Shown here one piece after another: positions 1,103 to 47,000 of a stretch of 64,000 nt of DNA (the stretch's first letter is position 1; every line of letters starts with the position of its first letter). Origin of the DNA: Actinopolyspora alba (GTDB lineage Bacteria; Actinomycetota; Actinomycetes; Mycobacteriales; Pseudonocardiaceae); NCBI RefSeq assembly GCF_900112765.1, contig NZ_FOMZ01000008.1:186001-250000 (forward strand), in the 5' to 3' direction. The position numbers and the translations under genes were made by a program. The notes beneath the pieces were generated by a model that had not been told where the DNA came from, did no database searches, and saw only the letters and a program-made list of their open reading frames with translations.

Positions 1103-1207
1103 CGGCGATTTCGCGAGAAATCGACGCCACCCCACCCGAATCCCCTTCACACGGCAGGGTGACGGTGCTCCGCCCGACGGCCGCCCCGGCACACCGGTGA
1201 TCGAATC
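1103..1207 (+). repeat. Long direct repeat, left copy, flanking toxin-antitoxin cassette 1
   Basis: This 105-bp sequence recurs at 2318-2423 with two substitutions and a one-base indel. Both copies begin with the genome-wide palindrome (here 1107-1122) and end in CACCGGTGATCGAATC. The two copies bracket the PIN toxin and its antitoxin and nothing else. The flanking sequence outside the repeats is unrelated. Confidence 0.95.
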
Positions 1208-1230
1208 GGCTCCACCGGTCCCAGGTGAGT

Positions 1231-1782
1231 TCAGATCCGCAGTGCCGCCACCGTTTCCACCAGCCCCTGCTCGTCGAGCCTACGAATCAGATCCTCGGTG
1301 GTCATGGGCGGATTCCGGTAGGCATCGGCCATACGCTGGATCGCTCCGAAAACCTTGGACTTGTCGAGATGGACCTGATCGGCCAGGAAAGCGTCGGCCG
1401 TCTTGGGCTCGACATCCCACCTCGCCAGTACATCCGAGGGGAAATCACCGATGTTGTTCGTCATGATCACCTGAGCGCGAGCTTTGATGGCCGCGGCCAG
1501 TACATGCCGATCGTTCTTGTCGGGCAATTCGACGACCTCGACCAGAGGTTCGTAGTCCTCGATCAGGCAGTCACGAACCGACTCGATCATCAGCTGCCTG
1601 GTTCGCGAAAGCCTCTCGCGGTCCAGCTCGGGCCGATTGATCATGAGGTTGTCGAACACCTCGTCAAGGATCGTATGCGTCCATCTGGCCTGAACCAGCC
1701 CGGCTTGCGCGACTCGAATCAGCAGATCCCGCGGAATGCTGCCGTAGAGAACGTTCGCGTCGTAGACAACGACGAAGGACAC
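1231..1782 (-). CDS. PIN-domain ribonuclease toxin (VapC-like)
   Basis: This 183-residue protein opens with the PIN motif VVVYDANVLYGS (acidic residue D8), followed by an acidic helix ILDEVFDN near residue 40, then DKNDRHVLAAAI and TNNIGDFP near residues 88-115, giving the usual quartet of acidic metal ligands. PIN toxins of this type cleave RNA, often tRNA or rRNA. A C-terminal extension of about 60 residues lies beyond the PIN fold, as in the larger actinobacterial members. The GTG start directly follows the antitoxin TGA stop, so the two are translationally coupled, antitoxin first. It is homologous in layout to the toxin at 45097-45651. Confidence 0.85.
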   Translation of the reverse strand: MSFVVVYDANVLYGSIPRDLLIRVAQAGLVQARWTHTILDEVFDNLMINRPELDRERLSRTRQLMIESVRDCLIEDYEPLVEVVELPDKNDRHVLAAAIKARAQVIMTNNIGDFPSDVLARWDVEPKTADAFLADQVHLDKSKVFGAIQRMADAYRNPPMTTEDLIRRLDEQGLVETVAALRI

Positions 1783-2235
1783 TCACACTCCCATGTCCTG
1801 ACTCAGCCGGGTGAGCTCATCGGCCGCCGAACGCCGGTCGTGGTCATCACGGCGCATGTACTGCAACAACGACTCGACGCTCACCCGACGATGGGTACCG
1901 ACCATGCGGTAGTCGATCTTCCCGGCTTCCAACAACCCGATCAGATGAGGCCTGGACACGTTGAGCAGATTCGCGGCCTCCTGAGTGGTGAGCTCCTCGT
2001 TCGTCGGAACGATCGAGGTGCCGGCGCCCGCTGCCATGTAGGCGAGGATCCGTTCGAAGAGCCTCACCGCTGAACGCGGTACGACCAGTTCTTCCCGCTC
2101 GAAGTCGTCGACCGTCAACCGCACCGTGGAGTGATCGTGCGTGTTCAGGTAGTGCCGTACCCGCGGTAACGCCGCCACCGCCGTTTCGCGGTCCGGCTCA
2201 CTCGGCTGCACGGAGTCGAGCATCGACTGCGACAT
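1783..2235 (-). CDS. Antitoxin with excisionase-type helix-turn-helix
   Basis: This 150-residue protein has a winged or excisionase-type helix-turn-helix in its C-terminal half (LTTQEAANLLNVSRPHLIGL, then a basic RVSVESLLQYM segment). The N-terminal half is likely to bind the toxin. The ATG at 2235 is chosen because GGAAGGG lies just upstream; longer frames extend into the direct repeat and are not credible. By family analogy the protein neutralises the PIN toxin and represses its own promoter, which should lie in the A-rich stretch at 2250-2300. The partner gene follows without a gap. Confidence 0.85.
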   Translation of the reverse strand: MSQSMLDSVQPSEPDRETAVAALPRVRHYLNTHDHSTVRLTVDDFEREELVVPRSAVRLFERILAYMAAGAGTSIVPTNEELTTQEAANLLNVSRPHLIGLLEAGKIDYRMVGTHRRVSVESLLQYMRRDDHDRRSAADELTRLSQDMGV

Positions 2236-2317
2236 CACGATCACACCCTTCCTGCGAGTCGATACAACCGTATTATCCGCAACAAACGAAACAAACGCAA
2301 CGACACTTCCCCAGCCC

Positions 2318-2423
2318 CGGCGATTTCGCGAGAAATCGACGCCACCCCCACCCGAATCCCCTTCACACGGCAGGGTGACGATGTTCCGCCCGACGGCCGC
2401 CCCGGCACACCGGTGATCGAATC
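2318..2423 (+). repeat. Long direct repeat, right copy, next to lexA
   Basis: This is the second copy of the repeat at 1103-1207; it ends 29 bp before the lexA start codon and so occupies the lexA upstream region. It contains the palindrome GATTTCGCGAGAAATC at 2322-2337. If a cassette was inserted here, one of the two copies is the original lexA upstream sequence. Confidence 0.95.
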
Positions 2424-2452
2424 TCCCGGGCCCGCATCTACCATCTACGCCC

Positions 2453-45084: not shown

Positions 45085-45096
45085 GCTCCTCGATGG

Positions 45097-45651
45097 TTAT
45101 TCACCGACGCTGCGACGAACGGCAGCGCAGAAGTCGGGCACGGTCTTGGCCAGCTTCGGCAAGAAGGAGAACAGGTCTTCGGGAGGAGACCGTCGATCGA
45201 CGACAAGCTCGCTCAAGCATCGCAAAGTCTCGTGAGGGTGAAGATCGAGCTGATCGAGCAGGAATTCGTCCGGTGTGACGACGCCGATGTCGTAGGGCTC
45301 TGTCGCTTCGTACGGGAAGTCCTTGGTGTTGTCGGTAACAAGCACCGCAGCTCCGCCGCGGATTGCCGCGGCCAGCACGTGTCGGTCCTTCCGATCGTTG
45401 GTCATGGACGGTACGAGTGACTCGTAATCGGTGACCAGCGCATCACGAAACTGGGTGCGCATCACCCGCACACGCCGTTGTGCCTTGACCGAGGTCATCG
45501 AACTGACCAGGGGCAGATTGCGCTCCACTTCATCCAGTACCTGTTCGGACCACAACGGCCTGTAGGTCTGTGCCTCTGCCAATCGCAGCAGCACGTCCGT
45601 CAGGTTGATCGGAACCAGACAGCAGGCATCCAAATAGGCCGGGAACGACAT
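45097..45651 (-). CDS. PIN-domain ribonuclease toxin (VapC-like)
   Basis: This 184-residue PIN toxin begins AYLDACCLVPINLTD (first acidic ligand D8), continues with VLDEVERNL, then DRKDRHVLAAAIRGGA and LVTDNTKDFP, so the acidic quartet is present. It resembles the toxin at 1231-1782 in length and motif order, but the two proteins have clearly diverged. The start ATG lies 3 bp after the antitoxin stop. By family it is an RNA-cleaving toxin held in check by the upstream-encoded antitoxin. Confidence 0.85.
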   Translation of the reverse strand: MSFPAYLDACCLVPINLTDVLLRLAEAQTYRPLWSEQVLDEVERNLPLVSSMTSVKAQRRVRVMRTQFRDALVTDYESLVPSMTNDRKDRHVLAAAIRGGAAVLVTDNTKDFPYEATEPYDIGVVTPDEFLLDQLDLHPHETLRCLSELVVDRRSPPEDLFSFLPKLAKTVPDFCAAVRRSVGE

Positions 45652-45654
45652 GAT

Positions 45655-46137
45655 TCAACGTGTCCGAACGAACTCGTCGATCTCGTCAGCCGTTCCGTCA
45701 TGAGCGGTGGTACGCGACTCCTCCGCCAGTGCCGCACGGCGCTCCTGCCTCGATCGGTGCTGGTACTCCAGGACATCGGCCAGCCGGACACGACGGTGAC
45801 GACCACGCACTTCGTAGGCGATCTCGCCCTCACGAAGCAGTCTGGTCAGCGTCGGACGCGAGATGTTGAGCATCTCGGCCGCTTCCTGCGTGGTCAACTG
45901 AGTGTTGTGCGGTGCGACCGTGATAGCCAGACCTTGCGACATGGCCTCGGCCACGTCCCGCAAAACCGCATAAACCTCTTCGGGAAGGTCCACTCGCGTA
46001 CCGTCCGGCCCGATCAGGCCGGCCTTTCCATCCCGCAGCGAAGACGTGTCCTCCAAGGCCGCAGCGAATCGCTTCAGACCGGCCTCATCGATCTCGTCCG
46101 GGGGAAGCACAGTGTGCTGTTCCAGTGCTGCTGTCAT
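45655..46137 (-). CDS. Antitoxin with excisionase-type helix-turn-helix
   Basis: This 160-residue protein has an excisionase-type helix-turn-helix in its C-terminal half (LTTQEAAEMLNISRPTLTRL and RRVRLADVLEYQ). The LTTQEAA...SRP core matches the antitoxin of cassette 1, while the N-terminal half differs more. ATG 46137 is chosen because AGGGAG lies five bases upstream; a GTG one codon earlier is possible. The A-rich sequence at 46170-46220 should be its promoter and operator. Confidence 0.85.
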   Translation of the reverse strand: MTAALEQHTVLPPDEIDEAGLKRFAAALEDTSSLRDGKAGLIGPDGTRVDLPEEVYAVLRDVAEAMSQGLAITVAPHNTQLTTQEAAEMLNISRPTLTRLLREGEIAYEVRGRHRRVRLADVLEYQHRSRQERRAALAEESRTTAHDGTADEIDEFVRTR

Positions 46138-46235
46138 CACGACTCCCTACAGCTCTCGATGACTCACAATATCACCCTACAGGAAACAAACACAAAAAGC
46201 GAAAAAAACGAAAAGCAAGAGCGGCCGTTACACCC

Positions 46236-47000
46236 TCACCCCATCGGCCTGCCGGGGCTGGACGCCTCGGCCCAGTAGCGGCGCGGAATCCGGCCCGCCT
46301 GCACGGCCAGCCGCCCCGCCTCCACGCCGGAGCGCATCGCGGCTGCCATCCGTTCCGGATCGTGCGCGCGGGTGACGGCCGAGGCCAGCAACACCGCGTC
46401 ACAACCCAACTCCATCGCGAACGCGGCGTCGGAGGCGGTGCCGATCCCGGCGTCGAGCACGATCGGCACCGAAGCACGGGAGCAGATCATCTCGATGTTG
46501 TGCGGGTTGCGGATGCCCAGCCCCGTCCCGATCGGCGAGCCCAGTGGCATCACCGCCGCGCAACCGAGCTGTTCCAACCGGGTGGCGAGCGCGGGGTCGT
46601 CGTTGGTGTAGGCGAGCACCACGAAGCCCTGGTCGATCAGCTGCTCGGCGGCGTCGGTCAGCTCCACCGGATCGGGCAGCAGCGTGTCCTCGTCGATCAC
46701 GACTTCCAGCTTGATCCAGTTCGTGCCCAGGGCCTCGCGTGCCAGCTGCGCGGTGAGCACCGCCTCAGCCGCGCTGCGGCAACCGGCGGTGTTGGGCAGC
46801 GGAGCTATGCCGAGCCGCCGCAGCAGGTCGAACACCCCGGTGCCCCCACCGGCATCGGCGCGGCGCATCGCCACGGTGGTCAGCTCCGTGCCGGAGGCGA
46901 TCAGCGCCTGCTCCAGCGCGGTCAGGCTGGCCGCACCCCCGGTTCCGGTAATCAGCCGCGAACCGAATTCGTGTCCCGCTATGAACAGCGGATCGTCCAT
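46236..47000 (-). CDS. thiG: Thiazole synthase ThiG
   Basis: This 254-residue enzyme forms the thiazole phosphate ring from deoxyxylulose phosphate, dehydroglycine and ThiS thiocarboxylate. The Schiff-base Lys lies in NWIKLEVVID near residue 97, and phosphate-binding segments include VLDAGIGTASDAAFAMELG and VLLASAVTRA. ATG 47000 has GGAGG seven bases upstream. It is 2 bp after the thiS stop, in the operon thiO-thiS-thiG. The last 37 codons are duplicated at 44974-45084. Confidence 0.96.
   Translation of the reverse strand: MDDPLFIAGHEFGSRLITGTGGAASLTALEQALIASGTELTTVAMRRADAGGGTGVFDLLRRLGIAPLPNTAGCRSAAEAVLTAQLAREALGTNWIKLEVVIDEDTLLPDPVELTDAAEQLIDQGFVVLAYTNDDPALATRLEQLGCAAVMPLGSPIGTGLGIRNPHNIEMICSRASVPIVLDAGIGTASDAAFAMELGCDAVLLASAVTRAHDPERMAAAMRSGVEAGRLAVQAGRIPRRYWAEASSPGRPMG
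46239..46349 (-). repeat. thiG 3' end, right repeat of cassette 2
   Basis: This is the authentic end of thiG and the right-hand member of the repeat pair. The thiG stop codon lies just outside it at 46236-46238. Confidence 0.95.

Follow-up and report, generated by a model that had tools for sequence, protein, structure and literature searches.

Predicted toxin-antitoxin operons within duplicated host sequence in Actinopolyspora alba and its genus

Two repeat-bracketed operons in the window

The 64,000-nucleotide (nt) stretch of the Actinopolyspora alba genome analyzed here, referred to as the window (contig NZ_FOMZ01000008.1, positions 186,001 to 250,000), carries two short cassettes in which a predicted toxin-antitoxin (TA) operon lies between long direct repeats. 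Each cassette contains two genes only, for an antitoxin and a PIN toxin, both on the minus strand. Comparison across the genus showed that the bracketing repeat is host sequence duplicated at the insertion site, and that the inserted unit is the bare operon together with its upstream region. The features are as follows (lengths of the products in amino acids, aa).

1103..1207, no strand: distal copy of the duplicated target (lexA2 upstream region), cassette 1, by repeat alignment
1231..1782, minus: PIN_3 toxin gene of cassette 1, 183 aa (PF13470, 39.4 bits; ratio of nonsynonymous to synonymous divergence, dN/dS, about 0.09-0.35 among orthologues)
1783..2235, minus: HTH_17 antitoxin gene of cassette 1, 150 aa (PF12728, 42.8 bits)
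2236..2317, minus: upstream region of cassette 1, with an A/T-rich motif and a putative promoter/operator role, from the sequence
2318..2423, no strand: proximal copy of the duplicated target, adjoining lexA2, by repeat alignment and the empty site in genome G006
2453..3106, plus: second LexA paralogue (lexA2), host gene at target 1 (Peptidase_S24, LexA_DNA_bind)
43724..44932, plus: FtsX-type permease gene, native neighbour downstream of thiG, by alignment to empty sites
44974..45084, no strand: distal copy of the duplicated target (thiG 3'-end fragment), cassette 2, by repeat alignment
45097..45651, minus: PIN_3 toxin gene of cassette 2, 184 aa (PF13470, 40.5 bits)
45655..46140, minus: HTH_17 antitoxin gene of cassette 2, 161 aa (PF12728, 54.6 bits)
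46141..46238, minus: upstream region of cassette 2, T-rich on the coding strand, with a putative promoter/operator role; contains the thiG stop codon (46236-46238); from the sequence
46239..46349, minus: proximal copy of the duplicated target, the 3' end of the intact thiG without its stop codon, by repeat alignment and empty sites
46236..47006, minus: thiG, host gene at target 2 (PF05690, E 3e-103)

The direct repeats of cassette 1 (1103-1207 and 2318-2423) measure 105 and 106 nt, are 97% identical over 106 aligned columns and have a period of 1216; those of cassette 2 (44974-45084 and 46239-46349) measure 111 nt, are 94.6% identical and have a period of 1265. The toxin stop codon lies 23 nt from the repeat in cassette 1 and 12 nt in cassette 2 (26 and 15 nt when counted from the last sense codon), and the antitoxin start lies 82 and 98 nt from the other copy. 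Both toxins match PIN_3 and both antitoxins match HTH_17 above the cut-off of 27 bits; the antitoxins also match TIGR01764, an excisionase-type DNA-binding domain. Between the two cassettes the toxins are 38% and the antitoxins 37% identical. A PIN toxin and a DNA-binding antitoxin in one operon with abutting open reading frames, as recognized here by Pfam matches above cut-off, is the layout of PIN-class type II TA systems. The repeats of the two cassettes are unrelated to each other, one being the region upstream of lexA2 and the other the 3' end of thiG. The original prediction, made from the letters of this DNA alone, had described both the order of repeat, PIN toxin and antitoxin at these two places and the origin of the repeats in different host loci, and on these points it was borne out. 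Among direct repeats of at least 40 nt with a spacing of 1-3 kb in the window, these are the sole pairs not built on a short dispersed palindrome, and chance is therefore excluded for both.

The toxins score 103.9 and 106.8 bits against NF046100 (RSP_2648-family PIN protein), below its curated cut-off of 170, and a search of PDB sequences with the toxin profile gave nothing significant. PADLOC gave no family for either toxin or for the cassette 1 antitoxin, and gave weak single-gene matches for the cassette 2 antitoxin. No recombinase or transposase is encoded in the two-gene cassettes, which, with repeats that also vary in length, do not have the make-up of a transposon, insertion sequence or integrative element; no inverted repeat links their two ends, and no terminal signal was found in them.

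Duplicated targets and empty sites across the genus

The A. alba genome has two toxin matches in all (E<=0.001), both bracketed by direct repeats as had been anticipated, and no copy lacking them. Across the genus, 14 distinct cassettes were identified in nine of ten Actinopolyspora genomes (E<=1e-5), and all 14 have direct repeats, of 94-254 nt and 94.6-99.5% identity. They occupy four host sites, namely the region upstream of lexA2 (six genomes), thiG (four), rraA (two) and an EamA-type gene (two), and therefore represent about four insertions. The thiG cassette is present in genomes G000, G007, G002 and G006 and absent from G004, G005, G009, G001, G003 and G008. At the empty thiG site of G004, G005, G009 and G001 the gene is followed by a single repeat copy and then by native downstream DNA, which matches the DNA that follows the distal copy in G000; in G003 and G008 the target is also single, with the native DNA some 380-430 nt further on. 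The lexA2 site is empty in G006, where 121 nt without an operon separate the two flanks. Since the target is single in genomes without the cassette, the repeats are identified as duplicated host target. At thiG, rraA and eamA the gene-adjacent copy completes the gene and the other copy is a fragment, and at lexA2 the duplicated stretch is intergenic; in the clearest cases a gene end, the end of a tRNA or an upstream region falls within the repeat, which leaves the neighbouring gene intact.

The extent of the inserted unit can be read from cassettes at different sites. Those at rraA and eamA align over about 1,145 bp at 86-88% identity; the shared stretch opens about 105 nt ahead of the antitoxin and closes 2 nt beyond the toxin stop codon, and the two loci are otherwise without a match. 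Almost the same stretch is common to the thiG cassettes and a relative in Saccharomonospora, which has no repeats. The toxin-side repeat begins 15-58 nt after the last sense codon in 11 of the 14 genus cassettes, and in none of the 14 does the space between operon and repeat exceed 232 nt on the upstream side or 170 nt on the downstream side. When placed on the tree, the thiG pattern would suit one old gain and later clean losses, two or three in number according to where the root lies; independent gains are also possible.

The lexA2 operons have a synonymous divergence (dS) of 0.5-0.9 between the two main clades, and on the tree the cassettes diverge between species as the species do (dS 0.03-0.86). 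As their toxin-side edge is also common to within a few nt, the lexA2 cassettes likely stem from a single old insertion. Repeat pairs are nevertheless more alike within than between genomes at lexA2 and eamA, and weakly so at rraA. The lexA2 copies show 1-2 differences within a genome versus 9-10 plus gaps between G000 and G007, and the eamA copies 1/201 and 1/194 within genomes versus 12/194 between species (Poisson estimates of about 5e-5 and 8e-5 for the two within-genome pairs). At rraA the values are 3/250 and 1/99 within versus 2/98 and 3/98 between. Near-identity within genomes, despite the age of the lexA2 cassettes, suggests that the repeat copies likely undergo repeated recombination while the operon is kept. 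At lexA2 and thiG both genes are under purifying selection (dN/dS 0.06-0.35); the rraA toxin pair, which aligned out of frame, was excluded from this calculation. In the thiG cassette of G007 (L018) the antitoxin differs from that of G000 with a dS of 0.04, the toxin with a dS of 0.95, and the downstream flank is different; with an antitoxin so close and a toxin so distant, the toxin half was probably exchanged.

Some further observations concern the same loci. In the cassettes with broken-looking toxin genes, L014/L024 and L009/L019, the repeats remain 99% alike. The second LexA paralogue (2453-3106) is present in seven of ten genomes, and a more distant LexA match in all ten. An 18-nt palindrome, CGATTTCTCGCGAAATCG (<=2 mismatches), is found at the left end of each of the two lexA2 repeats and occurs at 15 places in the window (1106, 2321, 10006, 11038, 13882, 20136, 23316, 23368, 23444, 28947, 37573, 49352, 49599, 60938 and 61134), with 22 matches over both strands versus 0 expected. 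A longer dispersed repeat family, whose direct and inverted copies are about 82-98% alike, occupies 20199-20382, 22947-23296, 29002-29133 and 60935-61330.

Relatives outside the genus and other cargo

PIN relatives were present in 103 of 297 genomes of the family. The set of loci outside the genus combined those from the family-genome search, with 60 further places from it, and named loci (the 80 best of 531 confirmed); partial or weak matches of that search were excluded, identical toxin DNA was counted once, and 147 of the 149 distinct loci were long enough to be scored. Tight repeats were found at 14 of the 147 loci versus 9 of 659 displaced (shifted) controls, drawn from longer loci only, at the preset E of 1e-3, and at 12 versus 0 at an E of 1e-5, a cut chosen after the list had been seen; these loci are not independent, at least five repeat-bearing ones (L209, L213, L219, L220 and L231) being at the same NHL-gene site. 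Two of the 14 are doubtful (L124, 71% over 84 nt; L080, 20 nt), and looser repeats such as those of L095 and L221 fall outside the tight-repeat test. The clearest outside repeats are those of Microcella alkalica (289 nt, 97%), Metallococcus carri (631 nt, 91%), Streptomyces griseus BIG105 (83 nt, 98%) and genome G044 (177 nt, 99%), and these four cover the 3' ends of a NAD-binding, a GNAT, a histidine kinase and a ubiE-type gene; at L191 a tRNA-Gly 3' end lies within the repeat. Toxin relatives also occur on 239 plasmid records, each with less than 60% identity. The repeats have no fixed length: the original prediction had assumed about 100 bp of homology and had named repeats of random length as evidence against itself, and the variation seen within and outside the genus does speak in part against it.

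The layout is not specific to the PIN_3/HTH_17 family. A scan of 1.6 of the 5.24 Mb of G002, started from a block with two known cassettes and extended over the third, identified 16 repeat pairs bracketing 0.6-3.1 kb (15 after merging two at 1.028 Mb). Six of these pairs hold predicted TA operons, or 3 of 13 when the three PIN_3/HTH_17 cassettes are set aside, one of these three being a tandem array (the DUF6247 site). In addition to the three PIN_3/HTH_17 operons, the TA inserts comprise an AbiEi/AbiEii operon, a DUF6247 gene with a RelE-like frame (by eye), and a ParE-like pair in which the toxin matches ParE below the Pfam cut-off and its partner matches nothing. The remaining pairs bracket paralogue duplications, a GNAT gene, a barstar gene, an integrase-like end, or unassigned sequence.

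Several of these sites can be compared between genomes. AbiEi/AbiEii lies between 242-nt repeats in G002, both repeats are also present in G007, and G000 is empty; a reading of this site in G004 as proof of a longer, eroded duplication was withdrawn, as that genome has a single repeat match. The DUF6247 site is a tandem R-TA-R-TA array (R, repeat copy) in G002 and G009 and was for this reason rejected as a pure insertion. At the 3' end of an AMP-binding-enzyme gene the order is gene-R-TA1-R-TA2 in G002 and G009, and gene-R followed by one related stretch in G000, G004 and G005, with short pieces of that stretch in G007. At an NHL/thioredoxin gene, G002 carries a CcdA-like/VapC operon and a broken YunG between 178-nt repeats, and G004 a YunG between 71-nt repeats; in G007 a YunG-like frame is accompanied by a single repeat match, and the site carries no insert in G000, G005 and G009. 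The 5' end of this gene is an insertion spot for PIN_3/HTH_17, VapBC and YunG across genera (L257, L282 and L368-L377, together with the five loci named above). The same toxin-side edge with two cargos there had raised the possibility of a site-specific boundary; shared ancestry fits better, because the G002 insert retains the broken YunG next to VapBC. A GATTCGA motif noticed by eye in two targets was dropped, being absent from the others.

As a control, 30 loci were fetched with the PF01850 family. Clear long bracketing repeats were present at two of them (L257 and L282, the latter with its own PF01850 match below cut-off), both at the NHL/thioredoxin site. L268 has a 62-nt, 79% pair formed by the 3' end of an adjoining UDG-type gene and is perhaps an older case; L256 and L271 have short pairs, that of L271 being the dispersed palindrome; L267 and L275 belong to a tandem array, and the other 23 have none. 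Together with L262, L267 and L275 (G006) form three tandem 1,180-nt units, in which a PF01850 match occurs together with a gene that looks DUF397-like by eye, and the internal repeat of L267 is 100% identical at the 1,180-nt period.

Explanations and comparison with known systems

The original prediction had proposed a possible new mobile TA element, inserted for instance by homology-mediated acquisition or by an enzyme encoded elsewhere. It holds in so far as the same operon type sits at unrelated sites with duplicated host DNA in 14 of 14 cases; it fails in that the arrangement is not confined to this TA family, the AbiE operon and the VapBC insert sharing it. A dedicated element, inserted by a recombinase encoded elsewhere with about 100 bp of host homology or duplication, would account for the tight borders of the roughly 1,145 bp shared by the rraA and eamA cassettes, for the narrow range in which most toxin-side repeats start and for the excisionase-type match of the antitoxins. 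We nevertheless regard it as distinctly unlikely, because unrelated cargo shares the layout, the duplication varies in length (94-254 nt in the genus and 83-631 nt in the four clearest outside cases) and no shared ends, whether inverted repeats or other terminal signals, were seen in the cassettes; in addition, no recombinase is encoded in them and 133 of the 147 outside loci lack tight repeats. The cassettes could also be what is left of larger integrated plasmids, integrative and conjugative elements or prophages, with the repeats as attachment (att) sites or Campbell-type homology and the rest decayed. Many targets are indeed gene 3' ends, the usual seats of integrative elements, both in the genus (thiG, rraA, EamA) and outside it (ubiE-type, NAD-binding, histidine kinase, metallo-beta-lactamase-fold and GNAT genes, and once the tRNA-Gly of L191); toxin relatives occur on plasmids, and one insert of the G002 scan has 44-nt repeats and a frame resembling an integrase end (by eye). 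This origin is unlikely, though not negligibly so, given that the 14 cassettes leave no space for other genes, that decay would have had to stop near the operon at several sites and that the lexA2 target is intergenic. A tandem duplication of a block of target and TA operon, followed by loss of one operon copy, is suggested by the arrangements at the AMP-binding-enzyme gene and is highly improbable as a general explanation: empty thiG genomes run from the repeat into the native gene that also follows the distal copy, for which simple insertion needs one step, and no trace of a second TA operon was noticed at any of the four PIN sites.

The explanation we consider probable, though well short of certain, is that a predicted TA operon inserted with duplication of its target and was then held because its toxin would kill cells losing it. 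Entry would have been by an illegitimate, replication- or repair-linked event that re-copied about 100 to 300 or more bp of the target, perhaps through a backward template switch or the fill-in of a long staggered break, and would have needed no enzyme from the cassette. By keeping gene ends and upstream regions complete, target duplication may make the insertion harmless, and this would account for the tolerance of insertions at gene ends. RecA-type recombination between the copies, which is supported by the homogenised repeats and the tandem arrays, would then convert them, sometimes amplify the unit and sometimes delete it cleanly. Predicted post-segregational killing would remove most deletants, and the deletable layout would persist mainly around addictive cargo.

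Several observations weigh against retention by addiction following insertion with target duplication. The toxin gene of the eamA cassette in G002 (L014/L024) is frameshifted and that of the rraA cassette in G003 (L009/L019) has an in-frame stop, yet repeats and operon persist in both. Genes other than TA operons are also repeat-bracketed (GNAT, DUF5753, DUF397 and barstar; YunG in G004). The AbiE operon is accompanied by a single repeat match in G004 and by one plus a 91-nt partial second in G005. Homogenisation is not universal, since the G000 thiG repeats differ from each other at 6/111 positions and the proximal copies of G000 and G007 at 4/111. The absence of tight repeats from 133 of the 147 outside loci points to insertion without duplication, or fast decay, as common.

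It is a tentative extension, which we consider possible but rather doubtful, that addiction leaves its genomic footprint in the form of long direct repeats on both sides of a gene pair: DNA bracketed in this way would recombine all the time and be expected to disappear, and what is retained would be the DNA that cells cannot do without. Whether chromosomal TA modules still act as addiction modules against their own loss is debated (PMC2654758). Operons inside recombining direct repeats would offer a natural test, because their deletion rate, set by homologous recombination, could be compared directly between operons with and without a live toxin. If the extension is true, repeat-bracketed inserts would reveal active chromosomal TA modules, and the homogenised Actinopolyspora repeats would record long-term post-segregational killing from the chromosome.

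Chromosomal vapBC-type loci likewise combine a PIN toxin and a small DNA-binding antitoxin in one operon, whereas the cassettes described here are of the PIN_3/HTH_17 type and come with target duplication. Integrative elements have direct att repeats at gene 3' ends and preserve the 3' end of the gene; unlike them, the cassettes have no integrase, their repeats vary in length and one target is an upstream region. The architecture itself already has a name, insertion with long target duplication, which citing papers attribute to Nobusato et al. in 2000 and Furuta et al. in 2010. It is described for restriction-modification genes in H. pylori (PMC1643837, PMC3874152, PMC3031569). According to two of these papers (PMC1643837, PMC3874152), a restriction-modification unit lies, as here, between long target duplicates of variable length, of the order of 100 bp, and the target is duplicated solely in the strain holding the unit. 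The cassettes agree with this in their variable repeats of about 100 bp (14 of 14), in the empty single-copy alleles at thiG, lexA2 and the AbiE site and, for the two in the window, in having neither a transposase nor inverted repeats that link the ends. They differ in that the cargo is PIN_3/HTH_17, AbiE or VapBC, from several TA families and in Actinobacteria, and in that the lexA2 insertion, with its homogenised repeats, appears old. No report of TA operons inside such duplications was found in the literature, a search that did not cover most subscription papers and is weak evidence of absence. Transposed Arabidopsis genes are also flanked by direct repeats that match the target in a sister species, for which circle excision and insertion by repeat recombination was proposed; that case is eukaryotic and involves various genes and no addiction (PMC2869330). 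As the cargo here is not restriction-modification, we class the cassettes as a variant of this pattern that carries TA operons, apart from the described cases; a mobility pattern known for restriction-modification genes is thereby extended to TA operons.

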